A stretch of 64,000 bases of DNA from Phytopseudomonas punonensis (GTDB lineage Bacteria > Pseudomonadota > Gammaproteobacteria > Pseudomonadales > Pseudomonadaceae). Position 1 is the first letter of the stretch; the number at the start of each line of letters is the position of its first letter. Position numbers and translations under genes: made by a program. Under the pieces are notes generated by a model. It was not told the origin of the DNA. It did no database searches and worked only from the letters and a program-made list of their open reading frames with translations. Location of the stretch: NCBI RefSeq assembly GCF_900142655.1, contig NZ_FRBQ01000001.1:870115-934114 (forward strand), in the 5' to 3' direction. Shown one piece after another: positions 1 to 13,450 of the stretch.

Positions 1-283
1 AGAGGGCGTGGCCTGCTCGTCGAGCAAGGCGCTGACTGGCCATACGCTCGGCGCGGCCGGAGCGCTGGAAGCGGCGTTCTGCTGGCTGACGCTGAGCAAC
101 TACAACAGCGCCAAGCGCCTGCCGCCTCACGTCTGGGACGGCGTGGCCGATACGCAACTGCCGCGCCTGGCGCTGGTCGAAGCGCCCGGTGCGCTGCCAG
201 CGACTGGGCGCCGTTACCTGATGAGCAATTCGTTCGCCTTTGGCGGCAACAATATTTCCTTGATTCTGGGAGACCTGCCGTGA
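1..283 (+). CDS. apeO: Aryl-polyene-type beta-ketoacyl-ACP synthase, C-terminal fragment (5' end outside window)
   Basis: This is the last ~93 codons of a FabF-like condensing enzyme, open from the first bases of the window. A catalytic-type histidine lies in TGHTLGAAGA, and the C-terminus has the usual SFAFGGNN motif. Such enzymes perform decarboxylative Claisen condensation of malonyl-ACP with an acyl-ACP. The stop overlaps the GTG start of the next gene by 4 nt (GTGA), so it is co-translated with the dehydratase. The order KS-DH-KR-KS matches the apeO-P-Q-R end of described aryl-polyene clusters. The family call is firm; the exact ape letter is inferred from order because the active-site cysteine half is not in the window. 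Confidence 0.8.
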   Translation, partial: EGVACSSSKALTGHTLGAAGALEAAFCWLTLSNYNSAKRLPPHVWDGVADTQLPRLALVEAPGALPATGRRYLMSNSFAFGGNNISLILGDLP

Positions 284-750
284 GTGTTTGGCCCGTCGCC
301 GAGCTGGTGCCCCACGCCGGTGACATGATTCTGATCGACGAGGTGCTGGCGTTTGGCGCCGAACATATCGACACCCGTTTGGTGGTCCGCCCGGACGGCC
401 TGTTCAGCCAGGCCGACGGCAGCCTGCCAGCGACTGTCGGCATCGAGCTGATGGCCCAGAGCGTCGCCGCGTTCGCGGGCTGTCACGCCCGTGAACAAGG
501 GCTGCCGGTGGAGCTGGGCTTTCTGCTCGGCACGCGTAATTTCGTCTGCAACGTGGATCGCTTCCCGGCCGGCACTACACTGCACATCCACGCCACCCGC
601 TCGCTGCAGGACGACAACGGCATGTGCGTGTTCGAGTGCCGCCTGGAAGGCCCGGATATTCTCGTCGAGGCGCGCCTGAACGTGTTTCAGCCACGTGACG
701 TGACCACCTACATTCAAGAGTCGCCCATTTCTCAGGAGCCGTCTGCATGA
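280..750 (+). CDS. apeP: 3-hydroxyacyl-ACP dehydratase, hotdog fold, ApeP-like
   Basis: A 156-aa single hotdog-domain protein. The FabA/FabZ-type catalytic pair is visible: His12 in VPHAGDMILID and a Glu near residue 55 in GIELMAQ. It would remove water from 3-hydroxyacyl-ACP to give the trans-2-enoyl unit; without an enoyl reductase, repeated cycles leave conjugated double bonds. It starts with GTG overlapping the upstream ketosynthase stop and ends 4 nt inside the next gene (ATGA). In characterised APE systems the ApeP subunit works as a heterodimer with ApeI; no adjacent ApeI is visible here, and it would be expected upstream of the window. Confidence 0.8.
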   Translation: MSVWPVAELVPHAGDMILIDEVLAFGAEHIDTRLVVRPDGLFSQADGSLPATVGIELMAQSVAAFAGCHAREQGLPVELGFLLGTRNFVCNVDRFPAGTTLHIHATRSLQDDNGMCVFECRLEGPDILVEARLNVFQPRDVTTYIQESPISQEPSA

Positions 751-1475
751 GCGAGACCATTCTGGTCACCGGATCGAGCCGCGGTATCGGCCGTGCTATC
801 GCCCTGCGCCTGGCGCGCGCCGGTTTCGACCTGGTGCTGCACTGCCGTTCGCGACGCGACGAAGCCGAAATAGTCCAGCGCGAGATCGAAGGCCTCGGCC
901 AGCAAGCGCGCATCCTGCAGTTCGACGTCGCCGACCGCGTCGCCTGTCGTGACGCCCTGGAGACAGACGTGGAAGCCCACGGCGCCTATTACGGCGTGGT
1001 CTGCAACGCCGGGCTGACCCGCGATGGCGCCTTTCCGGCGCTCAGCGAGGAAGACTGGGATGTGGTGCTGCGCACAAATCTGGATGGTTTCTACAACGTC
1101 CTACATCCGCTGACGATGCCGATGGTGCGCCGTCGCAAGCCAGGGCGTATCGTCTGTATCACCTCGGTTTCCGGGTTGATCGGCAACCGCGGCCAGGTCA
1201 ATTACAGCGCCTCGAAGGCCGGCATCATCGGCGCGGCCAAGGCGCTGGCCATCGAACTGGGCAAGCGCAAGATAACCGTCAACTGCGTGGCACCGGGGCT
1301 GATCGATACCGAGATTCTCGACGAGCACGTACCGCTCGAGGAGATTCTCAAGATGATCCCCACGGCCCGCATGGGCACCCCGGAAGAAGTCGCCGGCACG
1401 GTGAATTTTCTGATGTCCGAAGAGGCGGCGTACATCACCCGCCAGGTAATCGCCGTCAATGGCGGTCTGTGTTGA
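747..1475 (+). CDS. apeQ: 3-ketoacyl-ACP reductase, SDR family, ApeQ/FabG-like
   Basis: A 242-aa short-chain dehydrogenase/reductase. The cofactor motif TGSSRGIGRA is at residues 8-17. The catalytic Ser and the Tyr-x-x-x-Lys pair appear in the ITSVSG and NYSASKAG stretches, and the C-terminus GGLC resembles FabG. It reduces 3-ketoacyl-ACP to the 3-hydroxy form with NADPH, between condensation and dehydration. The start overlaps the dehydratase by 4 nt. Length and motifs are standard for FabG; assignment to the polyene pathway rather than housekeeping fatty-acid synthesis comes from context. Confidence 0.85.
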   Translation: MSETILVTGSSRGIGRAIALRLARAGFDLVLHCRSRRDEAEIVQREIEGLGQQARILQFDVADRVACRDALETDVEAHGAYYGVVCNAGLTRDGAFPALSEEDWDVVLRTNLDGFYNVLHPLTMPMVRRRKPGRIVCITSVSGLIGNRGQVNYSASKAGIIGAAKALAIELGKRKITVNCVAPGLIDTEILDEHVPLEEILKMIPTARMGTPEEVAGTVNFLMSEEAAYITRQVIAVNGGLC

Positions 1476-1494
1476 TGAAGAGCGAAGTGGCACG

Positions 1495-2721
1495 ATGAAG
1501 CGCGTAGTCGTTACCGGCATGGCCGGCATTACCTCTCTGGGCGATAGCTGGGAGAGCATCTCGGCGAACTTTCGCGCCAACCGCAACGGCATTCGGTTCA
1601 TGCACGAGTGGGATCGCTTCGCCGAGCTGAACACCCGCCTGGGCGGCCCGGTTGACGAGTTCGTGGTGCCAAGCCACTGGACGCGTAAACAACTGCGCAG
1701 CATGGGCCGCGTTTCGAAACTCTCGGTGTATGCCGCCGAACGCGCACTGGAACATGCCGGGCTGCTTGGCGATGCCAGCATCAAGGACGGGCGCATGGGC
1801 GTGGCCTGCGGCTCATCCACCGGCAGCACCGATGAGGTGAAAGCGTTTGGCAACATGCTGATCAACTCGGTGGCCGACGGCCTCAACGCCAACTCCTACA
1901 TCCGCATGATGCCGCACACCACGGCGGCCAATATCAGCATCTTCTTCGGCCTCACCGGCCGGCTGATCCCGACATCCAGCGCCTGTACCAGTGGCAGCCA
2001 GGGCATCGGCTACGCGTACGAGGCGATCAAGTTCGGCCGCCTGCCGCTGATGCTCGCCGGCGGCGCCGAGGAGCTGTGCCCGACCGAAGCGATGGTGTTC
2101 GATGCGCTGTACGCCACCAGCCTGAAAAACGATGCACCGCACACCAGCCCACGCCCCTACGACAGCGGCCGCGACGGCCTGGTGATCGGTGAAGGCGCCG
2201 GCATGCTGGTGCTTGAGGAGCTGGAACACGCGCTGGCACGTGGCGCCACCATCCACGCAGAGATCGTCGGCTTTGCATGCAACGCCGACGGCCAGCACGC
2301 CACCAAACCGGTGCAATCGACCATGCGCCGCGCCATGGAGCTGGCTCTGGAAGATGCCGCGTTGCCGCCAGACGCCATCGGCTACGTGAATGGCCACGGC
2401 ACCGCTACCGAACAGGGCGACGTGGCGGAAACCCAGGCCACCAGTGAATTGTTCGGTGCGCGCATGCCGATCAGCTCGCAGAAGAGCTACTTCGGCCACA
2501 CCCTGGGTGCCTGCGGCGCGCTGGAATCCTGGTTCAGCATCGAGATGCTCAACAGCGACAGTTACGCACACACGCTCAACCTCGATCACATCGACCCGGC
2601 GTGTGGCGAGCTGGATTACCTGCGCGGTGAATTCCGCGAGATGAGTAATGAATACGTTATGAACAACAATTTCGCCTTTGGTGGGGTCAATACATCGCTT
2701 GTATTTCGCCGCTGGCGTTAA
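1495..2721 (+). CDS. apeR: Beta-ketoacyl-ACP synthase (FabF-like), ApeR-like
   Basis: A 408-aa condensing enzyme with an intact Cys-His-His triad: Cys164 in SSACTSGSQG, His301 in NGHGTATEQGD and His335 in YFGHTLGACG. An upstream in-frame start (1459) would lie inside apeQ. The ATG at 1495 gives the canonical MKRVVVTG opening, and a purine-rich stretch precedes it. It lies 19 nt after apeQ and is the last gene of the operon that can be followed. In known APE loci the last ketosynthase is thought to support priming or alternative chain extension; which role applies here cannot be read from sequence. Confidence 0.85.
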   Translation: MKRVVVTGMAGITSLGDSWESISANFRANRNGIRFMHEWDRFAELNTRLGGPVDEFVVPSHWTRKQLRSMGRVSKLSVYAAERALEHAGLLGDASIKDGRMGVACGSSTGSTDEVKAFGNMLINSVADGLNANSYIRMMPHTTAANISIFFGLTGRLIPTSSACTSGSQGIGYAYEAIKFGRLPLMLAGGAEELCPTEAMVFDALYATSLKNDAPHTSPRPYDSGRDGLVIGEGAGMLVLEELEHALARGATIHAEIVGFACNADGQHATKPVQSTMRRAMELALEDAALPPDAIGYVNGHGTATEQGDVAETQATSELFGARMPISSQKSYFGHTLGACGALESWFSIEMLNSDSYAHTLNLDHIDPACGELDYLRGEFREMSNEYVMNNNFAFGGVNTSLVFRRWR

Positions 2722-2752
2722 CCGCTGAAATCTTCACTGACAAGGAACATGG

Positions 2753-3157
2753 ATGATGTCTCGCTTCAATCGCTTCGCCCTGCTTGCCCTGCTGCTTCTG
2801 GGCATTACCGCCTGTACCTCGAAACCGGTGCTGAACATCTCCAGCAGCGTGCCGCCGGCCGCAGCCAAAAGTCAGGATGACATGCGCCGGGCGATTCTCA
2901 CTGCCCTGCAACGCCGCCAATGGACCATCGAGCGCGCCGATAAGGGTCAGATCCTGGCCTCGATCACCCGCCGCAGCCATGAGGCGCAAATCAGCATTCC
3001 TTACACCGCGTCGTCTTACTCGATCCGTTATCGCGACAGCCACAACCTAGGCTATAGCGACGGCAAGATCCACCGTAACTACAACAAGTGGGTCCTTAAC
3101 CTTGATCGCAGCATCCAGCAGGAACTGCGTAGTCCATCCCTTCCAATGCCCCAGTGA
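2753..3157 (+). CDS. Small uncharacterised lipoprotein
   Basis: A 134-aa protein with a lipoprotein signal: a short basic N-terminus, a Leu-rich hydrophobic core and lipobox ITAC, with Cys22 as the lipidated residue (start at 2753). An AAGGA lies 6-9 nt upstream of two consecutive ATGs (2753 and 2756), either of which could be used. The mature part is hydrophilic with a positively charged centre, and I do not recognise a family. It lies 31 nt after apeR on the same strand and could be co-transcribed, which makes an envelope role linked to the polyene lipid possible but unproven. Confidence 0.7.
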   Translation: MMSRFNRFALLALLLLGITACTSKPVLNISSSVPPAAAKSQDDMRRAILTALQRRQWTIERADKGQILASITRRSHEAQISIPYTASSYSIRYRDSHNLGYSDGKIHRNYNKWVLNLDRSIQQELRSPSLPMPQ

Positions 3158-3175
3158 CATCCCAGGAGAAACTCG

Positions 3176-3616
3176 ATGAACGCGAAACGTTTGACCGCCG
3201 TTGCACTGCTCACCGCTGCCCTGCTGCCTGCCGTCAGCCAGGCCCGTGACACCGCCCACTTCCTGGACTTCCAGTCGGTGGTCAATGAAGCCACCCAGGC
3301 TGGCCGCCTCGATGGCTCGGTGAAGTTCTACCTGAACAAGACCCCGGCTGGCGCCAAGATCATCAACGCCAACGTGACCACCAGCCAGAAGACCAACGCC
3401 TTCAACAAGACCGACGAAGCTGCCTGCAGCTGGGCGCTGCAATCCGCGCTGATCAAACTGCAGAACTCGGCCAAAGCCGCAGGCGCCAACGCCGTGGTCG
3501 ACCTGGCCAGCAACTACAAGAACAAGGAATACCGCGACAACAGCAAATACGAATGCCACGCCGGCGCCATCATGGCTGGCGTTGCGCTGAAGGCTAAGTA
3601 CGCGAACGTCAAGTAA
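3176..3616 (+). CDS. Periplasmic protein of unknown function
   Basis: A 146-aa protein with a classic Sec signal peptide: MNAKR, then a hydrophobic stretch, with predicted cleavage after VSQA near residue 23. The mature domain is ~120 aa with two cysteines (DEAACSW and KYECHAG) that could form a disulfide. The AGANAVVDL stretch is reminiscent of YbjQ-type small domains, but I do not claim homology. It starts 18 nt after the lipoprotein stop with an AGGAGA ribosome site, so the two are probably one transcript, ended by the hairpin at 3638-3663. Confidence 0.7.
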   Translation: MNAKRLTAVALLTAALLPAVSQARDTAHFLDFQSVVNEATQAGRLDGSVKFYLNKTPAGAKIINANVTTSQKTNAFNKTDEAACSWALQSALIKLQNSAKAAGANAVVDLASNYKNKEYRDNSKYECHAGAIMAGVALKAKYANVK

Positions 3617-3637
3617 GCGCGCGCTTTAGCCCTGCCA

Positions 3638-3663
3638 AATAAGCCGCCTGCGGGCGGCTTATT
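3638..3663 (+). terminator. Hairpin terminator after the exported-protein pair
   Basis: A perfect 11-bp inverted repeat (AATAAGCCGCC / GGCGGCTTATT) with a 4-nt loop. The downstream T-tract is weak. It separates the 3176 gene from the next lipoprotein gene, and the stem is A/T-flanked on both sides so it could act in both directions. Confidence 0.75.
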
Positions 3664-3685
3664 CATTACAAGGAAGTTGATCAGC

Positions 3686-4282
3686 ATGTCCAAGGTTCTA
3701 TCGACGCTATCCCTATCGTCTCTGGCGCTCATCCTCGCCGCCTGCACGTCGGTTCGCGTCACACCACTGCAAAGCGCGCCGAACACCATGTGTATCGAAG
3801 AAAACCCCAAGGTCATGGTCAGCGACTTCGTACCAGTGCTGCAGCAGGGCTTCGCCAGGCACGGCATCACGACCCGGCCGTATGCGACGATCCCGTGGGA
3901 CCAGTGCCCGTACGTGGTGAGGTATACGGCGCGCCGCTCGTGGGACATGGCGCCTTATCTTTCCAGCGCTGAGCTGACCATTCTTGGGCCGCGGCGGCAG
4001 ACAATGGCCACGGCGGCCTATCACCTGCGCGGCAAGGGCGGCCTGTCGCTGATGAAGTGGCAGGGCACGAAAAGCAAGATGGATCCTGTGATCGATGAGC
4101 TGCTGAGCGAGGCCCAGCTAATCACCGAGCCTGCCGTTAGCGCCCCGGCGACCATCTCGCCAACGGGCGGCGCCAGCCTGAATGAGCGGATTCGCGAGCT
4201 ACAGCAGCAAAATCTCGACTATGAGAGTTACCAACGCGCCTATCGCCAGCTGATGCTGGAAAACCAGCCGGCGCAGCAGTGA
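3686..4282 (+). CDS. Sbal_3080-family lipoprotein
   Basis: A 198-aa lipoprotein. The ATG at 3686 is 9 nt after AAGGAAG and is preferred over the in-frame TTG at 3677. Lipobox LAAC places the lipidated Cys near residue 20. The mature domain has the pattern I associate with Sbal_3080-type lipoproteins: MCIEENP, then RHGI.T, then YVVRYTARRSWD. Function is unknown. A Gln-rich, probably helical tail follows residue ~165. It ends 9 nt from the convergent methyltransferase stop. It is one of three exported small proteins between the two lipid-assembly operons. Confidence 0.7.
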   Translation: MSKVLSTLSLSSLALILAACTSVRVTPLQSAPNTMCIEENPKVMVSDFVPVLQQGFARHGITTRPYATIPWDQCPYVVRYTARRSWDMAPYLSSAELTILGPRRQTMATAAYHLRGKGGLSLMKWQGTKSKMDPVIDELLSEAQLITEPAVSAPATISPTGGASLNERIRELQQQNLDYESYQRAYRQLMLENQPAQQ

Positions 4283-4291
4283 GCGTTCAGC

Positions 4292-4846
4292 TCAAAGAAT
4301 GAAGGGTACGAACATCCGGCTACGGGTCATGTAGTCGCGGTAGGCGTCGCCGAAGTAGGCCAGCGATTCACGCTCTTCGCAGCGCGCCGCGAGCCACAGA
4401 AAGACGCTGGACAGCACGGCCAGCGCCAGCGCCAGGGCGGTCGGCTGTTTCCAGGCGATGCCCCACGCCAGCAGCAGCAGCGAGCAGTACATCGGGTGAC
4501 GGATGTAGTGAAAGATGCCGCTGGTGACCAGCTTCGAAGTGCGCTCGAAAGCGAACAGCTCATCATCCTGCCGTTTCTCATTGGCACGGCCAAAACGGCG
4601 CATCTGGTGTATGCCGGCGAACAGCACAACCAGCGAAACCGTCAGCAATACCCAGGAGATCTGCTGATGCACGGCGTCGCGGTTCTCGAACCAGAACGGC
4701 GCATTGAGCACCAGCATCACCAGCATCACTTCCCACGCGAAGAAGCGATAAAAACCATGGCTGCGCGGGTTACCCAGCGAGCGCCAGGATACGGCCGTCA
4801 ACACGACGCTCAAACCCACGAAAACCAATAATTGCCAGACCTCCAC
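4292..4846 (-). CDS. Membrane methyltransferase, ICMT/PEMT (Ste14/NnrU-like) family
   Basis: A ~184-aa integral membrane protein with about four to five hydrophobic segments and the family hallmark RHPMYCSLLLLAWG, followed near the C-terminus by EERE..YFGDAYRDY. Family members use SAM to methylate lipid-anchored substrates at the membrane. I chose GTG at 4846 because AGGGAGG lies 6 nt upstream; GTG 4849 is possible. A longer start at 4927 would overlap the divergent dehydratase gene. Related ICMT-type enzymes methylate phenolic lipids in Streptomyces (SrsB), so an O-methylation role on a resorcinol made by the neighbouring dar-like genes is plausible. That is inference. Confidence 0.8.
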   Translation of the reverse strand: MEVWQLLVFVGLSVVLTAVSWRSLGNPRSHGFYRFFAWEVMLVMLVLNAPFWFENRDAVHQQISWVLLTVSLVVLFAGIHQMRRFGRANEKRQDDELFAFERTSKLVTSGIFHYIRHPMYCSLLLLAWGIAWKQPTALALALAVLSSVFLWLAARCEERESLAYFGDAYRDYMTRSRMFVPFIL

Positions 4847-4906
4847 CACACTCCTCCCTAATAGTGCTCTGTTACACTGCTGCGCTCGCACGCTTAGACG
4901 CCCGCC

Positions 4907-5314
4907 ATGGATCGCACCCAACTGCACTCACTGCTGCCGCACCAGGGCAATGCACTCTGGCTGGACGCGCTGCTCGAACACGAGGCCAGCAGCATCCGCG
5001 GCCTGAGCGACTGGCAGTACCTCGAGAACCTCGGCGAACACGCCTCTCCCTGCCTGTTTTTCGAAGCCGCCGCTCAGTTGTGTGCCGCGCATGGTGCCTT
5101 ATACGGCAAGGACAGCGCCATCGAAATGGCCCTGGTCGGTAAGCTCTCGCAGCTGCAGCTGCATTATCACCCCAGCGGGCGTAGCGGCCCACTGCTGGTC
5201 AGCGCAGCCCAGGAGGCAATGAGCCCGGCGGGCGCGCTTTACGGCTTCAGCATCCACTGCCACGACCGCCTGTTGCTCGACGGCAAACTACTCCTGGTGC
5301 TCGTCCGTGCTTGA
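4907..5314 (+). CDS. FabA/FabZ-like hotdog dehydratase, first gene of the second lipid operon
   Basis: A 135-aa hotdog-fold protein. His12 (LLPHQGNALWLD) and Glu in FFEAAAQ near residue 52 occupy the dehydratase catalytic positions. It is divergent from the methyltransferase and overlaps the ABC ATPase gene by 8 nt, so it leads a tightly coupled operon: dehydratase, ATPase, permease, ACP, KS, CLF. It resembles the small dehydratase partner type found in polyene clusters, and it could pair with the larger ApeP-like protein or act alone on the ACP encoded downstream. No ketoreductase is encoded in this second operon, so it may borrow the one at 747-1475. Confidence 0.75.
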   Translation: MDRTQLHSLLPHQGNALWLDALLEHEASSIRGLSDWQYLENLGEHASPCLFFEAAAQLCAAHGALYGKDSAIEMALVGKLSQLQLHYHPSGRSGPLLVSAAQEAMSPAGALYGFSIHCHDRLLLDGKLLLVLVRA

Positions 5315-6191
5315 GCTCGACAACCTCAGCTACCGCTACCCGCAAGCCACGCAGCCGGCGCTACAAGGCATCGACCTGCAGTTGCAGGCGGGCCAATGCC
5401 TGGGCCTGCTCGGCAGCAACGGCGCGGGCAAGACCACGCTGCTGTCATTGCTCAGCGGCGTGCTGCAGCCCCAAGGGGGAGCGATCGTCTGGCAAGGCGA
5501 GCGCCGCCTCGGCCTGGTGCCGCAGCAACTGGCGTTTTACGCCGGGCTCAAGGTCAGGGAAAACCTCGAACTGTTCGCTGACCTGTACCAGTTGCGCGGC
5601 GCCGAGCGGCATCAGCGGCTGGACCGCTGCATCGCCAGCACCGCGCTGGCAGACAAACTCGAACGCCGCGCCGAACGGCTGTCTGGCGGCGAGCAGCGGC
5701 GCCTGAACTTCGCCATCGGCCTGCTGCAACCGGCCGAGTTGTACCTGTTCGACGAAGCCACCGTGGGCGTCGATGCCAGCAGCCGGCAGATGCTGCTCGA
5801 AGCCGTCGGGCTGCTGACCCGCGAAGGCAAGGCGGTGATTTACACCAGCCATTACCTTGATGAAGTGGAAAAGGTCGCCGACCGCATCCTGTTGCTCCAC
5901 GAAGGCCGCGTGCAGTTGGATATCGACAAGCACCAGTTGCTGGGCGACCAGCCCGGCCTGTTTCTGGAGTGGCCCGAGCAGCCCCCCGACGCCCTTCCAG
6001 CGCTACTTGCCGAGCTGGGCCTGAGTGCCGAACACACGTCCAACGGCGTGCGCATCGCCACGCTGAACGTCGACCAACTGCTGGCGATCACCCGGTTCAT
6101 CGCCGCACAGCCGCAAACGCCGAGCCTGCTGCGTTTCGGTCGGCCGTCACTGGAGCAGTTGTACCTGCGCCTCAATGGAGGCCAGCTATGA
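5307..6191 (+). CDS. ABC transporter ATP-binding protein
   Basis: A 294-aa ABC ATPase with Walker A GSNGAGKT (residues 36-43), signature LSGGEQRR, Walker B LYLFDEAT and switch-region TSHYLDE. The C-terminal ~70 residues extend beyond the ATPase core, as in CcmA/DrrA-type exporters. The start is GTG inside the dehydratase 3' end, and the stop overlaps the permease ATG (ATGA). With the next gene it forms an ABC-2-type exporter. Because it sits between a dehydratase and an ACP, the substrate is most likely the lipid or polyketide made by this locus. Confidence 0.88.
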   Translation: MLELDNLSYRYPQATQPALQGIDLQLQAGQCLGLLGSNGAGKTTLLSLLSGVLQPQGGAIVWQGERRLGLVPQQLAFYAGLKVRENLELFADLYQLRGAERHQRLDRCIASTALADKLERRAERLSGGEQRRLNFAIGLLQPAELYLFDEATVGVDASSRQMLLEAVGLLTREGKAVIYTSHYLDEVEKVADRILLLHEGRVQLDIDKHQLLGDQPGLFLEWPEQPPDALPALLAELGLSAEHTSNGVRIATLNVDQLLAITRFIAAQPQTPSLLRFGRPSLEQLYLRLNGGQL

Positions 6192-7375
6192 GGCTGCGCG
6201 CCCTGATCCGCAAGGAAACCCTGCTGTTGCTGCGCGACCCCCACGCGCTGGCGGTGTTGTTCCTTATGCCGACGCTGTTTCTGGTGATCATGGCTGGCGC
6301 CATGTCCAGCTACCTGCAGGATCGCCTGCCGCCATTGCAGTTAGTGATCGAAGCGCCGCAGCAGAGCGATTCCAGTCGTTTTTTCCAGAACGCCTTGCAG
6401 GCGCAGCTGCCGGACAGCAGCTTGCTGGCCAGCGGCCCGGCCGAACTGGCGCGTATCAGCCTGGCTGCCGACTTCGACGAAAGGCTGCTGGATATCCCAC
6501 ACCAAGGGCCCACGCTGAGCTTTCCCGCGCAATTCGATCGCCTCTCGCGCCAGCGCCTGCACGGTGCGGTGACCATCGCCCTAGCGCAAACCCGGTTACG
6601 CGCCTACCTGCAGGACAGTGGCGCGCTGCAAGAAGGCCTGACGTCAGCCGAGCAGCTCGAGCTGATCCAGCAACGCACCGAGAGCCAGATCGACGAACGC
6701 GAGCGCCTGGCCAGTGGCGACCTGAGCGACCGAGCCAACGCCACACAGATGAGCGTGCCGGCGTGGCTGATCTTTGGCATGTTCTTCGTGGTGCTACCAA
6801 TGGCCGGTAGTTTTCAGCGCGAGCAACAGAGCGGCGCGCTGCTGCGTTTTCGCTGCCTGGGCCTGGGGCTCGGCACGCTGGCGCTGAGCAAGATGCTGCC
6901 GTACCTGGCCATCAACCTCTTGCAGTTCGTGGTGCTGTTGAGCATCGGCATGCATGGCTTGCCGCTCGTCGGCCTGCCCGCGCTGGAACTCAATGGCAGC
7001 CTGCACGCTTACGCCCTGCTGGCGGCTAGCATCGCCCTGGCGACCAGCAGCCTAGGCCTACTGCTGGCGGCATTGGCACGCAGTAGTGAACAAGCCCTAT
7101 TGCTTGGCGGCGGGATCAATATCATCCTCGCAGCCATCGGCGGCATTATGGTGCCCAAGAGCGTGATGCCGGAGGCCATGCGCCAACTGGCGGAAGTTTC
7201 CCCGATGAGCTGGGCGCTCGACGCCTTCCTCACCCTGCTGGTGGGCCACGGTTCACTGGCTGACGTAATCCCGTGGTGTGCTCGCCTGTTGCTGTTCGCA
7301 GCCCTGGCCGGCGCGGGCGGCTTGTTCCTGTTCCACAAACGAGTACAGCAAACGCAATGGACCACACACTACTAG
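6188..7375 (+). CDS. ABC-2 type transporter permease
   Basis: A 395-aa permease of the ABC-2/YhhJ-like layout: one N-terminal membrane helix (about residues 20-40), a ~170-residue extracytoplasmic loop, then five to six helices with the family-typical MVPKSVMPEAM and SPMSWALDAF stretches. The ATG at 6188 overlaps the ATPase stop; a longer open frame back to 5969 is only an overlap artefact within the ATPase gene. Partner of the upstream ATPase in export of a hydrophobic product. It overlaps the ACP gene by 19 nt, which is unusually tight. Confidence 0.85.
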   Translation: MRLRALIRKETLLLLRDPHALAVLFLMPTLFLVIMAGAMSSYLQDRLPPLQLVIEAPQQSDSSRFFQNALQAQLPDSSLLASGPAELARISLAADFDERLLDIPHQGPTLSFPAQFDRLSRQRLHGAVTIALAQTRLRAYLQDSGALQEGLTSAEQLELIQQRTESQIDERERLASGDLSDRANATQMSVPAWLIFGMFFVVLPMAGSFQREQQSGALLRFRCLGLGLGTLALSKMLPYLAINLLQFVVLLSIGMHGLPLVGLPALELNGSLHAYALLAASIALATSSLGLLLAALARSSEQALLLGGGINIILAAIGGIMVPKSVMPEAMRQLAEVSPMSWALDAFLTLLVGHGSLADVIPWCARLLLFAALAGAGGLFLFHKRVQQTQWTTHY

Positions 7376-7623
7376 AAGAAAAGCTCAAGCAATTGCTGAT
7401 TCGCGAGTGCGACAAGGAAGACGATATCGACTGGCAAAGCATCGATAACGACGAGCCGCTGTTCGGCCAGCAGAGCCGTATCCAGATGGACAGTCTCGAC
7501 GCCCTGCAAGTCTCGCTGGCCCTGCAGCAACAGTACGGCGTGCGCATCGAAGGCGCTAAAGACGGCCGTCGTATCCTCAACAGCATTGCCAGCATTGCGG
7601 CCTTTATCAGGCAACAACAGTGA
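7357..7623 (+). CDS. Acyl carrier protein
   Basis: An 88-aa acidic helical protein. The phosphopantetheine attachment site is the Ser in IQMDSLDALQ, near residue 47, in the usual DSL context. It would carry the growing acyl or ketoacyl chain for the adjacent ketosynthase, the dehydratase and probably the DarB- and BtrH-like enzymes. The ATG at 7357 lies inside the permease gene; an open frame back to 7273 is unlikely to be used. It is followed with 4-nt overlap (GTGA) by the ketosynthase, so ACP and KS are translationally coupled. Confidence 0.88.
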   Translation: MDHTLLEEKLKQLLIRECDKEDDIDWQSIDNDEPLFGQQSRIQMDSLDALQVSLALQQQYGVRIEGAKDGRRILNSIASIAAFIRQQQ

Positions 7624-8726
7624 CGCCCGTCTACCTGCAGCGAGGCGCCATGCACAGCGCTCTCGGTGCTGACCTATGCACGGCCAATGAGGCGCTGCGC
7701 ACTGGCGTACTCCCGCACGCGGCCAGCTTCACGCTCAACGAGTTGCAGGAACCACGGCCATACCTGAGCGTGGCAGGCGGCGAGAGCCGCGATGAACACT
7801 TCGACCGGCTGATCCGCGAAACCCTGGGCGAAGCCCCAACTGCGCTGGACGATTGCCTACTGATCGTCGCCAGCACCAGCCTGGATATCGACGAGTTGGA
7901 AGTGCTGGCCGAACAGAGCGGCGGTTTCCATCCCGACCACTCGACTTCGCTGGATCTGATCGCCGAGCAACTGAGCAAGCGTTGGGGCTTCGCCGCAGCC
8001 TTCACCCTCAATACCGCCTGCACCAGCGCTGCCAACGGTTTACTGTACGGCGCGCGCATGCTCGGTGCCGACTTGTATCGCCGCGTGCTGGTGCTGGCCT
8101 TCGAAACACCCAGCGCCATCGCCCAACAAGGCTTTGGCGCGTTGGGGCTGGTGTCGCCGAGTGGCGACTACCGCCCCTTCCACCCGCAACGCGACGGCCT
8201 GGTACTCGGCGAGGCCTATGCAACGGCGCTGCTGAGCCTGCAGCCTGGGCCTGCGCCGCTGGCGCGCCTGCTGGGCGGCTTCAGCGCCTGCGACACCAGC
8301 AACCTGACCACCACCCGCGAAGACGGCAGCCATATCGAATGGGTGATGCGCGAGGCCTTGCGCAGTGCCGATGTCAGTGCCGAGCAGATCGGCCTGGTGA
8401 AACCCCATGGCACGGCCACCGGCGCCAATGACCGCGCCGAAAGCAATGGCGTGCGCCTGCTGTTCGGCGAGGCGCTGCCACCGCTGTGCGTGCTCAAACC
8501 CTGGCTCGGCCACACCCTGGGCGCCTGCGGCCTGACGGAAACCCTGCTGTTGGTGGAAAATCTCGCTCATCTGCCGGCCTGCGACTACGCCACCGAAGCG
8601 CTGCTGCCGCTGCCTGCCGAGCCTCTGGCCATAAGCGAAGACAGCCTGCTGCTCGCCAATTTCTTCGGCTTTGGCGGCAACAACGCCAGCCTGGTGTTGC
8701 AACGCTGCACGGGAGACGCACCATGA
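7620..8726 (+). CDS. Beta-ketoacyl-ACP synthase (FabF-like, compact)
   Basis: A 368-aa condensing enzyme, ~40 residues shorter than typical FabF, with all three catalytic residues present: Cys134 in NTACTSAANG, His263 in KPHGTATGAND and His298 in WLGHTLGACG. It ends with FFGFGGNNASLVL. The N-terminal ~60 residues are reduced compared with apeR. It starts with GTG overlapping the ACP stop and ends ATGA-coupled to a chain-length-factor-like protein, the arrangement of type II PKS KS/CLF pairs. It likely elongates chains on the operon's own ACP. Confidence 0.85.
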   Translation: MTPVYLQRGAMHSALGADLCTANEALRTGVLPHAASFTLNELQEPRPYLSVAGGESRDEHFDRLIRETLGEAPTALDDCLLIVASTSLDIDELEVLAEQSGGFHPDHSTSLDLIAEQLSKRWGFAAAFTLNTACTSAANGLLYGARMLGADLYRRVLVLAFETPSAIAQQGFGALGLVSPSGDYRPFHPQRDGLVLGEAYATALLSLQPGPAPLARLLGGFSACDTSNLTTTREDGSHIEWVMREALRSADVSAEQIGLVKPHGTATGANDRAESNGVRLLFGEALPPLCVLKPWLGHTLGACGLTETLLLVENLAHLPACDYATEALLPLPAEPLAISEDSLLLANFFGFGGNNASLVLQRCTGDAP

Positions 8727-9274
8727 GCCATGCCATAGCCGCCTGCAGCGTTCGTGGGGACGCGGATAACTCCGACAAGGACCTGAAAGCCACGCTGATC
8801 AACTGGCTGCCGACCACACCACGGCGTATCGACCGACTGATCCTGCAGGCCCTGCTCTGCGCTGCACCGCTGCGGGCCAAGATCCGCAGCGACTGTGGGC
8901 TGTACCTGGCCTCGCGGCACCCGGCCAGAGCCACCATGGGCTCGCTGCTCGACGCGGTGTGCGTGCACAAACAACAGCCCAAGCCCTTCGAGTTCGTCAA
9001 CAGCGTCAGCAACGCCGCGGGCTTTCATGTCGCCGCGCAGCTGGGGTTGGAAGGGCCAAACCTGTTTATCGGCGCCGGCCCGCACGTGTGGAAACACCTG
9101 CAGGCATTGGCTGGACTGGATCTGGCCGACGGCCTGATCGGCCAAGCGCTGCTCGTGCTGATCGATGAAGACGACGAGTTCGAGGCCCAGGCGGTGCTGG
9201 TTGAAGGCCCAAGCCAGGCCGCGGACTTTGCCGAGCTAACGGCGGGGATCGATGCGCTGCAGTTGCAGCTGTAA
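8723..9274 (+). CDS. Chain-length-factor-like protein (half-size ketosynthase N-terminal fold)
   Basis: A 183-aa protein that resembles the ketoacyl-synt_2 type domain seen in ApeC-like chain length factors. The NSVSNAAGFHVAAQL segment (residues 93-107) stands where an active-site region would be, but no nucleophilic Cys is present, so it should not condense by itself. The ATG at 8723 overlaps the KS stop; a longer frame from 8486 is rejected because it lies inside the KS gene. By analogy with KS-CLF heterodimers it may set chain length for the preceding ketosynthase. It ends this operon. Confidence 0.7.
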   Translation: MSHAIAACSVRGDADNSDKDLKATLINWLPTTPRRIDRLILQALLCAAPLRAKIRSDCGLYLASRHPARATMGSLLDAVCVHKQQPKPFEFVNSVSNAAGFHVAAQLGLEGPNLFIGAGPHVWKHLQALAGLDLADGLIGQALLVLIDEDDEFEAQAVLVEGPSQAADFAELTAGIDALQLQL

Positions 9275-9302
9275 ACCAGCGGCTGTTTAAGACGGGAGCA
9301 GA

Positions 9303-9380
9303 CGTAGGGTGGACAACGCTCTTTTTGTCCACCATTGCAATCGCAGAGCGGTGGACGGGTGAAGCGTCGCCCACCCTACG
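9303..9380. repeat. Long imperfect palindrome (REP-like)
   Basis: CGTAGGGTGG at 9303-9312 is inverted as CCACCCTACG at 9371-9380. Inside it a second pair (GTCCACC / GGTGGAC) continues the symmetry, giving a ~78-nt cruciform-like element. It lies between two converging operons, where REP-type elements are common in Pseudomonas, and may also serve as a bidirectional transcription stop or mRNA end. Confidence 0.75.
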
Positions 9381-9383
9381 ACT

Positions 9384-9433
9384 GTGGGAGCGGGCCATGC
9401 CCGCGAAGAAATCATGGCCGTGCCCCGCTCCCA
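9384..9433. repeat. REP-type element, GTGGGAGCGGG family
   Basis: GTGGGAGCGGGCCATGCCCGCG starts the element, with an inner hairpin GCGGGC/GCCCGC. The outer arm TGGGAGCGGG is closed by CCCGCTCCCA at 9424-9433. The sequence matches the well-known GTGGGAGCGGGC...GCCCGCG intergenic repeat of Pseudomonas genomes. It follows the preceding palindrome directly in the 203-nt convergent gap. Confidence 0.8.
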
Positions 9434-9477
9434 TAGGTATCACGCACATCTCTGCTTCGACCTTCTGCCGCCCTGCT

Positions 9478-10479
9478 TCAGCCCTTGCGCCTGGCCCAAG
9501 CACCCAGCTCCTTCATCAGCGCACGCTCCTGACCCGCGATCCCACGCAGCATCTCGGAAATCGGCCGGAAGTCTGGCGTCTCGCCCTTGCTGCGACTAGC
9601 CCGTACACAAGCCGAAGCGAACTGGCGCCAATCGTCGCCGACTGCGGTCATGCGCGCCGAGGCGGCCTGCAACGTGGCATCACCGATCTTCTCGCCGGCC
9701 TCCTGCAGAAAGCTGGCGTACATGAAGCGAAAACCCGCACCACCGGTGCCGATCTCTTCCTGCATGCGCACGATGTGGGTGAGGTACAAGCGGTTGTACT
9801 TTGCCTGCGCCGGATCGAGCGCCTCAACACGCTTGGCCAGATGGCCGATACCGCGAATGCCGATCCACGGCAGCGGCATGCCGTCGAGAATCCGCGCGGT
9901 GGACAGCACGCTCTTGCGAATTAGCGCTTCCCAGTCCTGATCCGGTGACACATCGTCCAGGTAATACATCAGCCCTTTGGCCGCCAGAGCGCCTTTGGCG
10001 AAGCGCGCTTTCTGCAGATCCTCGGCAGCACAACGCACCGGCGCCTCGAACACCGGGTCGCTGAGCAGGTATTCGTTGCCCTCGCGCCCATAGGCCAGCA
10101 GGTTGTGGGCGTTAAAGTGAAAGCGCATCTCCGGCGGAAAGTACGGCAGCCAGAACACCGAGCTCTGCAGCCCAGCCAGGCGGCCGCTGTCGAGGGCGGC
10201 ATCGAGCGCGATGCGGCCTTGCTCGGGATTGTTGAAGGTGCGACTGGTCAGGCGTACGCCAAGGCGCTTGCTCAGTGTCTTGATCAGGTGCCGGGGCGGC
10301 ATGCGGTAGGCAATCAACGGCATGCCGCCAAGCTTGACGATCGGCAGGTAGGCGAACGCCAGCCCCGACGCCAGGCCGAACGCCATCGGCTCACTCATTG
10401 GCAGGCCGGCGTGGGTCAGCAGACTGGCCATCACGCCGCTTTCGCAGTGAGCGCTCTGGCGATGCTCGAACGGGGTCAT
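9478..10479 (-). CDS. BtrH-type acyltransferase (BtrH N-terminal plus DUF4872-like)
   Basis: A 333-aa protein. The N-terminal half has the BtrH/cysteine-peptidase-like signature: HCES with Cys12, His125 in FNAHNLLAYG and Asp141 in LLSDPVF, a plausible Cys-His-Asp triad. The C-terminal half is helical. BtrH in butirosin biosynthesis transfers an acyl group from an acyl carrier protein to an acceptor. Here it is the last gene of the darA-darB-orf operon, ATGA-coupled to the small orf. My inference is that it moves an ACP-bound acyl chain onto a hydroxyl or amine acceptor, possibly the resorcinol. Confidence 0.8.
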   Translation of the reverse strand: MTPFEHRQSAHCESGVMASLLTHAGLPMSEPMAFGLASGLAFAYLPIVKLGGMPLIAYRMPPRHLIKTLSKRLGVRLTSRTFNNPEQGRIALDAALDSGRLAGLQSSVFWLPYFPPEMRFHFNAHNLLAYGREGNEYLLSDPVFEAPVRCAAEDLQKARFAKGALAAKGLMYYLDDVSPDQDWEALIRKSVLSTARILDGMPLPWIGIRGIGHLAKRVEALDPAQAKYNRLYLTHIVRMQEEIGTGGAGFRFMYASFLQEAGEKIGDATLQAASARMTAVGDDWRQFASACVRASRSKGETPDFRPISEMLRGIAGQERALMKELGAWARRKG

Positions 10480-10883
10480 GGCAATTCCTTCTGATAACGA
10501 CGCAGCTCGGCGACGGTCAGGCCAAAGGCCTCGGCATAGCGGCCCAGCACGGAATCACTCAGGCGACGATAGATTTGCGGGCGAAAATGCCGCCGCACCC
10601 GCCACTGCCAGAGCCCGGAAATCTGCGCCAGCGCCGGCTCATCCATGCGGTAGCGGAACATCAGGCATTTGAGCGGCGACAGCTCACCGCGCTGCCAGCC
10701 GGCATAGGCCTCGGCTTCCTGGGCCTGCAACTCGGCCACGGCCAGTTGCGTGGAAAACGACTCGGCCTCCCAGCCGGCACTCTTGGCGCCCGTGTAATGA
10801 CCCTTGTCATCCACGGCGTAGAGCAATTTGCTGTGCCCGCCGTAGGCGGAATCCGGGTCCTGCGGAACCTCGTCAAGCTTCAT
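10476..10883 (-). CDS. Small protein of unknown function in the dar-like operon
   Basis: A 135-aa protein I do not recognise. The ATG at 10883 is preferred over the upstream frame start at 10979, which lies within darB. It overlaps darB by 11 nt and btrH by 4 nt, so all are co-translated. It has no signal peptide or membrane helix. The C-terminal half (residues ~85-135) reads LAQISGLWQWRVRRH, then LGRYAEAFGLTVAEL, which looks like two helix-turn-helix-like segments rich in Arg. Whether that means DNA binding or a helical partner of BtrH or ACP is unclear. Confidence 0.7.
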   Translation of the reverse strand: MKLDEVPQDPDSAYGGHSKLLYAVDDKGHYTGAKSAGWEAESFSTQLAVAELQAQEAEAYAGWQRGELSPLKCLMFRYRMDEPALAQISGLWQWRVRRHFRPQIYRRLSDSVLGRYAEAFGLTVAELRRYQKELP

Positions 10884-12030
10884 TGCCGACCACCGTGAGG
10901 TGCATGAATGCACTGGAGAAACGCCCGCTTTCCGGCACGTAGCAGAGCAGTTTCTGGCCGCTGCGCAGATGCCCGCCATTGAACAGTTCTTCGAGGATGA
11001 TGAAGATCGACGCCGCGCCGGTATTGCCCTTGCTGGTCAGGTTGGTGAACCAGCGTTCCTGGGGAATCGGCAGGCCAACATTGGCCAGGCCCACGGCCAG
11101 GCGGTCGCGGAAGAACTCCGAGGAGTAATGCGGCAGGAACCAGTCGATGTCCGCCACGCGCAGCTCGCGGCGCGCCATGATGCGTTTCAGCGCTTCTTCC
11201 ACGGTGTATTTGACAATGTTGTCGTTGAGCAGCTTGACGTCCTGCTTGACCGCCATCACCGACTGCCGGGCGCGCTCGTCTGCGTCATAACGGCTCCAGC
11301 CGCGCAGGCTGCCGTCCTGCATCTCGGCGCCGGCGTACATGCAGGCCGGCATCTGGTCGGCGAAGGAGAGAATGTCCAGCCAGTCGACCCGCAGGCTGAG
11401 CCCACTGGCGTTGGGTCGATCCTGCAGCAGCACGGCGCCGGCGCCATCGGAAAGCATCCAGCGCAGGAAGTCCTTCTCGAAGGCGATTTCCGGATGGTTC
11501 TCCAGCTCTTCGACGCGGCTCTCGTACTCGGCGTTGAAGTTGCGCGCCTGCATCATTGCCGAGGCGACCTCCGAGCCGCAGGCCACGGCGTTGCGGCTTT
11601 CACCGCTGGCCACGCTCATCCAGGCGTATTTCAGCGCCGTCATCCCGCACAGGCAGATTCCCGCCGTGGTGGCGACTTCGCAAGACGGGTTGCCCAGCTC
11701 GCCGTGCACCATCACCCCATGACCCGGCATCAGCTGATCGGGTGACGAGGTGCTGGCAACCAGGCAATCCAGGCTGTCCAGCGCGAAACCGTCGCCAACC
11801 AGGCCACGAATCGCCGCGGCACTGAGCTGCGCATTGTTCATGCTCGGCTCGCCGGTCAGCGGGTCGATGACGTAGTGACGCTGCTGGATGCCGTTACGGC
11901 GCAACACCAGCTTGCGCGCGCGCGAGGGTTTGCCACCGACCATGCCGAGCCGTGCTTCCATTTGCTCGTTGTCGACCGGATCATGGGGCAGGCTGGCACT
12001 GATACGGTTGATGAATACGGGTGCTACCAC
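10873..12030 (-). CDS. darB: Ketosynthase III, DarB-like
   Basis: A 385-aa thiolase-fold condensing enzyme of the KAS III/DarB type. Candidate nucleophile Cys126/Cys128 lies in TAGICLCGMTAL, His301 in FLPHYSSEFF and Asn336 in SKGNTGAAS. DarB enzymes join two beta-ketoacyl thioesters head-to-head and cyclise them to cyclohexanediones, which DarA then aromatises to dialkylresorcinols. GTG at 12030 is preceded by GAGG at suitable spacing. It lies 18 nt after darA. Its length exceeds FabH (~320 aa), as expected for DarB-like proteins. FabH-type function is the main alternative, but the pairing with darA argues against it. Confidence 0.82.
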   Translation of the reverse strand: MVAPVFINRISASLPHDPVDNEQMEARLGMVGGKPSRARKLVLRRNGIQQRHYVIDPLTGEPSMNNAQLSAAAIRGLVGDGFALDSLDCLVASTSSPDQLMPGHGVMVHGELGNPSCEVATTAGICLCGMTALKYAWMSVASGESRNAVACGSEVASAMMQARNFNAEYESRVEELENHPEIAFEKDFLRWMLSDGAGAVLLQDRPNASGLSLRVDWLDILSFADQMPACMYAGAEMQDGSLRGWSRYDADERARQSVMAVKQDVKLLNDNIVKYTVEEALKRIMARRELRVADIDWFLPHYSSEFFRDRLAVGLANVGLPIPQERWFTNLTSKGNTGAASIFIILEELFNGGHLRSGQKLLCYVPESGRFSSAFMHLTVVGNEA

Positions 12031-12048
12031 GGGATTACCTCGGTCACT

Positions 12049-12966
12049 TCACTCGCCGGACGGGCCGGCGAAGTAGGCCTTTTGACGCTGGATTCGCGCC
12101 TTGAACAGCGGGGCCAACAACTTTTTCAACAATGCACTGATCGGCACCACGGTAAGAATCAGGCAGATCAGGAACACGATATACACCACCAGCCCGACGC
12201 CACGACGCCTGCTCTGCTGCGGGCCGAGCGCGGAGAGCAGGCGGCTCCACAGGGTAAAGCTGCGGTTGCCGACCTTTTCGCTGGCGATCAGCTTTTCATC
12301 TACCTTCACTGCACCCAGGCCACCCAGCATCGGCTGTTCGATGGGCCGCTCATCAGCCTGCAGGCGCCTCACCATGGCATCGCCAAAGCGGCTGGCAGCG
12401 GCCATTTCCGCCTCGTCGATGCCGGCACGCGGCACCCAGCTGTAGGGTTTCTGCCGGCCGGTGAACATCCACAACGGCGTCGCCAGAAAGCTCGCGGCGG
12501 TGCCGCAGGCATCGGTCAGCACGGCGTTGTCGACCAGTTTTGCGCCCAGCGCGTGCAGGCGCGCCTTGACCTTCTCCTGCGCCATCAGCCACATATTGCG
12601 GCAGCCGATCAGGGTCACCACTGGAGTATCCTTCAACAGCCGGGAAGCCTCAGGCGATGCAAGGAAACTGGTGAAAGGCAACGATGGCGACAGGAACCAC
12701 ACCTGATAGGCGAGAATGATCAGGTCATAGCGCTTGTCGGCATCGACCTTCAGCGGCAGCAGTGGCTGCGGCTTCATCAGCACGGTTTCCGGGAAGATCC
12801 GGAAGAAGCCGAGAAAGGGCCAGGGAAATGGAAACGGCTCTGCCGGCTCAAGGGCCAGGAAATCGACCTGAATGCCGTCACTGGCCTGCAATGGCGCACA
12901 GACCGATTGCACCAGGCGGTTCAATTGGCCAGTCTGTGAGAAGTGAACGACTAGAACCTGACGCAT
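12049..12966 (-). CDS. darA: DarA-like aromatase / dialkylresorcinol condensing enzyme, flavodoxin fold
   Basis: A 305-aa protein. The N-terminal ~190 residues look like a flavodoxin/NADPH-dependent oxidoreductase fold, with FMN-phosphate loop VHFSQTGQLNR at residues 6-16. A conserved-looking centre (GCRNMWLMAQEKVK) follows. A C-terminal hydrophobic helix (VVYIVFLICLILTVV, around residues 255-275) is followed by a basic tail, so the enzyme is probably membrane-anchored. DarA oxidises DarB-made cyclohexanediones to resorcinols. It is first in the minus-strand operon and diverges from the DUF2141 gene with only 31 nt between the two starts, so promoters must overlap the coding regions. Confidence 0.8.
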   Translation of the reverse strand: MRQVLVVHFSQTGQLNRLVQSVCAPLQASDGIQVDFLALEPAEPFPFPWPFLGFFRIFPETVLMKPQPLLPLKVDADKRYDLIILAYQVWFLSPSLPFTSFLASPEASRLLKDTPVVTLIGCRNMWLMAQEKVKARLHALGAKLVDNAVLTDACGTAASFLATPLWMFTGRQKPYSWVPRAGIDEAEMAAASRFGDAMVRRLQADERPIEQPMLGGLGAVKVDEKLIASEKVGNRSFTLWSRLLSALGPQQSRRRGVGLVVYIVFLICLILTVVPISALLKKLLAPLFKARIQRQKAYFAGPSGE

Positions 12967-12997: not shown

Positions 12998-13450
12998 ATG
13001 CCACAGAGAATTCTTCAAATCGTAACCAAACGCTGCGCGGCATGCGCAGTGGTTCTCTTGTTTGGCTGCTTATCAGCGCAAGCGGGCGATCTATTGATAC
13101 GCGTGGAGGGCAATCAGAGTGCTGCCCCGCTGTACCTGGGACTGGTCAGCGCCGACCAGAAAACTTGGGAGTCGCTGCTGCGCGAGCAACGCGGAAGCGG
13201 CGAGCAACTGATCCTCAAGGACGTGCCGCCGGGGCGCTTTGCCCTGCAGCTGTATCAGGACAGCAACGGCAACGGTCACCTTGACCTCAGCCCCCGCGGC
13301 ATTCCGCTGGAGCCCGTCGGGTTCTCCGCCAACCCTACCTTGCTCAAGGGCAAGCCAGCGCCAAAGGCGGCGCAGTTCGAGCATGGCGACGATGACACGC
13401 TGATCGACATCCGCCTGCACCAGCCTCGCGGCAAGGTGCAGAAGGACTGA
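12998..13450 (+). CDS. DUF2141-family periplasmic protein
   Basis: A 150-aa protein with a Sec signal peptide cleaved after SAQA, near residue 29. The mature beta-rich domain has the DUF2141 hallmark: LQLYQDSNGNGHLD, then GIPLEPVGFSANP. The Asp/Asn loop looks like a calcium-type binding loop. It is divergent from darA and convergent with hemE (6 nt between stops). Function of the family is unknown. Placement beside the dar-like operon may be accidental, because it also marks the edge of the conserved core. Confidence 0.8.
   Translation: MPQRILQIVTKRCAACAVVLLFGCLSAQAGDLLIRVEGNQSAAPLYLGLVSADQKTWESLLREQRGSGEQLILKDVPPGRFALQLYQDSNGNGHLDLSPRGIPLEPVGFSANPTLLKGKPAPKAAQFEHGDDDTLIDIRLHQPRGKVQKD

Follow-up and report, generated by a model that had tools for sequence, protein, structure and literature searches.

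An aryl-polyene (APE) operon and a dialkylresorcinol (DAR) gene cluster, dar, lie side by side in Phytopseudomonas punonensis and are likely to make an ester of the flexirubin/arcuflavin type; DarE, a predicted cysteine acyltransferase, would couple the polyene acyl group to a hydroxyl of the resorcinol. The DNA analysed, hereafter the window, is a stretch of 64,000 nucleotides of contig NZ_FRBQ01000001.1 (G000:C10:870115-934114; genome and locus handles are ours) from a 4.81 Mb genome with a single ApeP match and a single DarB match. What the analysis shows directly is which genes are present, how they are conserved and how they co-occur, together with a predicted fold and its invariant residues; a polyene-resorcinol ester, as predicted from the genes, is the best-supported reading of the product. 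An earlier sequence-only reading had called APE genes beside DAR genes in a pseudomonad; open reading frame (ORF), Pfam and NCBIfam checks confirmed this setting and recovered the described genes at their positions. Judged by DarE, the closest named relatives among the matches listed belong to Pseudomonas (sp. URMO17WK12:I2, P. dryadis and P. daroniae, 95%). The genes on which the reading is built are as follows.

1-283, plus strand: 3' end of an ApeO-type ketosynthase (KS) with the [ST]AC[ST] motif; its start lies upstream of the window, where the frame was followed on the same contig
280-750, plus strand: ApeP-like dehydratase (PF22817, E 2.7e-22)
747-1475, plus strand: ketoreductase (KR) of the ApeQ type (PF13561/PF00106)
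1459-2721, plus strand: ApeR-type KS, the final gene of the APE operon (PF00109/PF02801)
4907-5314, plus strand: dehydratase-like protein of the dar unit (a motif-only label; in 53 of the 80 loci surveyed)
5307-6191, plus strand: DarF, ATPase of an ATP-binding cassette (ABC) transporter (PF00005; the same kind as darF in the Azoarcus gene table)
6188-7375, plus strand: DarI, ABC-2 type permease (PF12698/PF01061)
7357-7623, plus strand: DarC, acyl carrier protein (ACP) with the serine of a DSL motif (PF00550 slightly under cut-off)
7620-8726, plus strand: DarJ, KS (PF02801/PF00109; Cys, His and His motifs)
8723-9274, plus strand: DarK, small partner resembling a KS or chain length factor (CLF), labelled by position and from the sequence-only reading, conserved after DarJ
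9478-10479, minus strand: DarE, BtrH-like papain-fold protein (NCBIfam 'DarH_acyl', NF053550; PF14399, PF16169)
10476-10883, minus strand: DarD (NCBIfam DarG family, NF053536, 170 bits with a cut-off of 70)
10873-12030, minus strand: DarB, KS of the StlD/DarB family (NF005293, 596.8 bits with a cut-off of 450; StlD structure 5gk0, E 2.6e-148)
12049-12966, minus strand: DarA-like protein, a predicted aromatase (flavodoxin-like SQTGQ motif)

Adjacent frames overlap or almost touch in a two-operon pattern. The runs at 4907-9274 (plus strand) and 12966-9478 (minus strand) are oriented face to face. The former had been taken for an operon separate from dar, which was not borne out: it forms a single dar cluster with the latter and accompanies darABDE, and relatives keep the gene kinds of 4907-9274 with darA-B-D-E even when no APE genes are nearby. 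A second polyene operon was rejected for this run, since it keeps company with darABDE. Scans for promoters (0 promoter-like sites versus 2.0 expected) and terminators (10 terminator-like sites versus 8.9 expected) were uninformative.

The conservation of this unit was surveyed in named loci retrieved with DarE, namely the best 80 of 308, with flanks of at most 10 kb. In all 80 loci darA>darB>darD>darE are contiguous, in this order and on one strand, so the arrangement is not due to chance; DarD is thus present throughout, and the DarA-like protein invariably adjoins DarB. The complete set of darF, I, C, J and K occurs in 63/80 loci, and at least three of these genes in 69/80.

The dar unit has been connected to APE genes in several different ways. 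In two of the four Neisseria loci (L066 and L068), darABDE lies between the LolA-like and MMPL genes of an APE operon on a single strand, and L078 has the same upstream genes over the matched DNA. In the Pasteurellaceae genera Actinobacillus, Rodentibacter and Conservatibacter (L069, L071, L073 and L076), apeP-Q-R are followed by darA-B-D-E and darF on the same strand. Elsewhere apeR faces the darK end (L084, L090), apeR and two small ORFs precede darA (Thiopseudomonas L058, L060), or the opposite end of the APE operon adjoins darA (Rheinheimera L063). Linkage that recurs in such varied builds would be expected of two products that meet, though it does not prove that they do. Across genomes, a family sample of 298 contained DarE over its cut-off in 37, DarB in 39 and an ApeP match in 170, and DarB and ApeP were both present in 37/37 genomes with DarE (DarE-ApeP co-occurrence, hypergeometric 1.4e-10, relatedness uncorrected). 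The position of ApeP, listed for 31 of the DarE genomes, was within 10 kb in 12, at 18 kb in 1, at 48-60 kb in 6, far in 2 and on another contig in 10. Matches below cut-off were left uncounted here and in the class sample described below: DarE-like ones in G066 and G186 (family) and in G310 and G435 (class), and DarB ones in G316, G374 and G520 (class) together with many weak ones in the family sample.

The same surveys also hold observations that weigh against a joint product. No ape gene lies in the flanks of 38 of the 80 loci, which include many Pseudomonas and Stutzerimonas dar units and one Neisseria locus (L070, none in the matched DNA); one or two lie in the flanks of 9 and at least three in those of 33, and these ape counts are lower bounds because of the limited flanks and of contig ends. 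The locus counts therefore define dar as the unit, to which APE has been joined in some lineages. The family sample is uneven in relatedness. In the class sample (274 genomes, two of them common to the family sample), where DarE was over cut-off in 13, DarB in 16 and ApeP matched in 36, only 9/13 DarE genomes have an ApeP match. Of those without one, G368 and G537 carry diverged ape-like genes beside dar, and G369 and G428 have no ape genes in the stretches read, the G428 contig being only 12 kb long. In addition, five genomes with DarB over cut-off lack DarE (G132, G254, G401, G494 and G517; completeness 85% for G401 and 82% for G517). They contain darA and darB only, with ApeP elsewhere in 5/5, so that APE plus DarB does not require DarE. 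Compared with the window, their darA is 44-54% identical (about 47% for the DarB-adjacent ORFs of G132 and G254) and their darB 53-60%, and there is no match to darD, E, F, I, C, J or K nearby; these loci are perhaps like the P. chlororaphis resorcinol cluster.

The APE-less loci, the DarE-less genomes and the commonness of APE in the family anyway (ApeP in 170/298) all favour two independent neighbouring pathways, one for a V. fischeri/E. coli-type aryl-polyene lipid and one for a free DAR, linked by chance or by shared regulation. We consider this distinctly unlikely: DarE and ApeP co-occur in every DarE genome of the family sample, dar sits inside or right after APE genes on one strand in the Neisseria (L066, L068) and Pasteurellaceae loci, and there is the precedent of Azoarcus sp. 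BH72, in whose native strain free DAR was not detectable (PMC3949708).

The reading of the product as an ester singles out DarE. It scores 472.7 bits against NF053550 (DarH_acyl), over the curated cut-off of 300, and the NCBIfam family name already says acyltransferase. Cys12, His125 and Asp141 are invariant in 81/81 DarE sequences and are taken as a papain-type triad because their spacing agrees with that of CtaG variants, the basis being spacing and not measured geometry. Structure models (28 of the 81 DarE sequences) show a papain-fold protein with whole-length fold matches to AziU3/U2, CtaG and CcbD. DarE shares with CtaG and CcbD the fold over the whole protein and the Cys-His-acid set; with BtrH the likeness is by domain. 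Sequence searches of solved structures gave no match up to E 1, and the matches of a DarE profile, all over its C-terminal part, were confined to helical proteins, designed bundles and apolipophorin III. A protein search with DarE (best 120 of 8000) returned, among named proteins, close relatives of the Pseudomonas type. DarE is predicted to be an ester-forming acyltransferase, and this is the main testable prediction of the analysis. A bolder proposal, to which we give slightly less than an even chance, is that DarE supplies the coupling step so far missing for pigments of the flexirubin/arcuflavin class: it would represent an ester-forming branch of the BtrH/CcbD papain-fold acyltransferases, uniting two polyketides that are assembled separately, a carrier-bound polyene and a resorcinol, and the helix-turn-helix-like DarD would be its constant partner.

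Further points on the opposing side concern DarE itself. CcbD forms an amide, whereas DarE is predicted to form a phenol ester, and AziU3/U2, the best fold match, is not known to be an ester-forming acyltransferase. The papain fold also includes peptidases and hydrolases. The arcuflavin paper describes darE as a BtrH-like peptidase only, with no dar mutant tested in the excerpts of PMC3949708, and for flexirubin a ligase-like protein, FlxW, was proposed for coupling by the authors of PMC3992019. The ester could accordingly be made by another enzyme, such as a FlxW-like ligase, with DarE serving as a thioesterase/hydrolase or moving acyl groups elsewhere. We judge this rather unlikely, given that DarE and DarD adjoin darAB in all 80 loci (which were selected by DarE), that neither has a match beside the five darAB-only loci, and that the full-length fold matches of DarE are AziU3/U2, CtaG and CcbD.

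The models of DarD (28 sequences) are confident only C-terminally (blocks >90 from about residue 60), and no fold match reached E 0.001, the top rows, from E 0.014 upwards, being NGO0477 and repressor-type proteins. An XRE-like helix-turn-helix is suggested by the models for the C-terminal half, and a regulatory role is a guess. Names require care here: our DarD and DarE correspond to the NCBIfam 'DarG family' and 'DarH_acyl', respectively, whereas in Azoarcus the names darG and darH stand for Phd/PilT-like genes (PMC3949708).

A pathway to the polyene-resorcinol ester can be proposed in four steps. First, the APE operon, with its AMP-ligase/ApeI-type dehydratase, its set of KS, KR and dehydratase (DH), and an ammonia-lyase for a cinnamate-type starter, would yield an aryl-polyene acyl-ACP. 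Second, DarB would join two fatty-acyl-type units and DarA would aromatise the ring to give the resorcinol, for which the DarC ACP, DarJ/DarK and the dehydratase-like protein would provide an acyl unit. Third, the polyene would be moved from its carrier protein onto Cys12 of DarE, with His125 and Asp141 assisting, and from there to a phenolic hydroxyl. Fourth, DarF/DarI and the APE-type MMPL and LolA proteins would carry the pigment towards the outer membrane.

The proteins assigned to the second step differ in how far family models support them. DarB is under the narrower NF053539 resorcinol_DarB cut-off (488.3 versus 550). The DarA-like protein matched no curated Pfam or NCBIfam model and no solved structure by sequence up to E 1; its relatives show marginal flavodoxin matches in up to 6/16, the window protein none. 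DarK has no Pfam match. The ORF at 4907-5314 has neither a Pfam nor an NCBIfam match and shows a weak ApeP-like start (BLASTP E 0.011), so the dehydratase label is a motif-level guess. The dar unit has a KS, a CLF-like partner, an ACP, a dehydratase-like protein and an ABC transporter of its own, with F, I, C, J and K complete in 63/80 loci, and might instead make a phenolic lipid, its chain extended by DarJ/DarK and the dehydratase-like protein, that is exported by DarF/DarI and never meets the polyene. This appears very unlikely, as ApeP accompanies DarE in 37/37 genomes of the family sample and the same gene kinds go with the DAR half of arcuflavin (PMC3949708).

The polyene half of the proposed ester extends beyond the window. 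The KS-DH-KR-KS operon tail recognized at 1-2721 is real, and the upstream remainder of the operon, which the sequence-only reading omitted, continues on the same contig for up to about 15 kb before the window (from about 4889 of L009 to the end of that locus). Family matches there are to an AMP-ligase fused to an ApeI-type dehydratase, a family 2 glycosyltransferase, an LpxL-like acyltransferase, an aromatic amino acid ammonia-lyase (PF00221, E 4.7e-157), a 4HBT thioesterase, an MMPL protein, a flavin adenine dinucleotide (FAD)-dependent oxidoreductase and a methyltransferase. An acyltransferase-like protein at the start, a multi-pass membrane protein and a small lipoprotein-like ORF were recognized by eye, without family support, and after these comes the KS that extends into the window. 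APE clusters of the E. coli/V. fischeri type combine an ApeP-type dehydratase, a KR, two KS, an AMP-ligase with an ApeI-type domain, a LolA-like protein and an MMPL protein in one operon. By Pfam and NCBIfam all of these genes were found in the operon described here, the LolA-like protein with a match slightly under the Pfam cut-off.

Two further genes border the dar unit.

4292-4927, minus strand: PEMT/ICMT-like membrane methyltransferase (PF04191; in 51/80 loci)
12998-13450, plus strand: DUF2141 protein, divergent from darA (PF09912; in 58/80 loci)

The methyltransferase may be a pigment-tailoring enzyme. The DUF2141 neighbour is also found beside dar in Pseudoalteromonas. Between apeR and the dar unit (2753-4282, plus strand) are three small ORFs that by eye have lipoprotein- or signal-peptide-like starts, match no Pfam family and are variably retained among relatives. 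In L050 and L051, at about 11.0-14 kb, the gap between darE and darK is about 3 kb wider than in relatives, suggesting an inserted element. A BtrH-like protein occurs in 44 Acinetobacter plasmid records, those listed being 27.5% identical to DarE. DarB matches occur in 8 plasmid records; in the two looked at, from Prevotella and Bacteroides, the DarB-like KS (L161 19935-21071, L162 12001-13143) adjoins a TetR- or HTH-type regulator, and the annotation nearby lists no further dar or ape gene.

Flexirubins are used as chemotaxonomic markers of Bacteroidetes (PMC3949708), and arcuflavin and the clusters described here extend the same pigment logic across Proteobacteria. How the two halves are joined is a matter of proposal for flexirubin (FlxW, PMC3992019), and the excerpts of PMC3949708 name no enzyme for arcuflavin; DarE is a single conserved, deletable candidate for this step, present in culturable Pseudomonas such as P. 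straminea (L024). Among reported carriers of APE-DAR clusters, P. chaetocerotis forms yellow colonies (PMC10165715). New in this analysis are the union of the two 'operons' in a single dar unit, the counts of co-occurrence and of the exceptions to it, and the proposal of DarE as a specific and testable enzyme for the joining step.

Flexirubin clusters (Chitinophaga pinensis, PMC3992019; Flavobacterium) resemble the window in combining APE genes and darA/darB with an aromatic ammonia-lyase, LolA and exporter genes. The flexirubin-type label given by the sequence-only reading does not hold by NCBIfam equivalog models, all of which are under cut-off (DarG 119.3 bits with a cut-off of 170, FlxA 307.1 with 700, LolA2 43 with 125), and a flexirubin cluster in the strict sense was rejected on these cut-offs.

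Two precedents were overlooked by the sequence-only reading, which knew of no characterised product of this arrangement, namely arcuflavin, itself a proposed product, and the APE-DAR hybrids reported from Pseudomonas. Arcuflavin of the betaproteobacterium Azoarcus sp. BH72 is a proposed xanthomonadin-DAR hybrid with an ester link inferred from mass spectrometry, and its authors expected such pigments in Pseudomonas too (PMC3949708). The Azoarcus dar cluster and the window have in common the gene kinds darK, J, C, I, F, E, D, B and A (Table 1 of PMC3949708; gene kinds were compared, not alignments). They differ in that the polyene genes of Azoarcus occupy two loci apart from dar, whereas a single APE operon adjoins dar in the window; that a XanB2-type chorismatase provides the starter in Azoarcus and the APE operon here carries an ammonia-lyase; and that PilT/Phd-like genes stand inside the Azoarcus dar cluster and none in that of the window (PMC3949708).

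A 2023 paper describes APE-DAR hybrid clusters from marine Pseudomonas, strain 8O and P. chaetocerotis among them, and calls for chemistry (PMC10165715); no product of a Pseudomonas APE-DAR cluster was found in the literature searched, although one may still be in print. As in the window, the hybrid clusters of marine Pseudomonadaceae connect an E. coli/V. fischeri-type APE cluster to a DAR cluster (PMC10165715). Pseudomonas sp. 8O (L015) has the window's gene order from apeP to hemE, with 59-93% protein identity and no difference in order seen, and because this strain shares its layout, the window locus is a further member of the reported kind.

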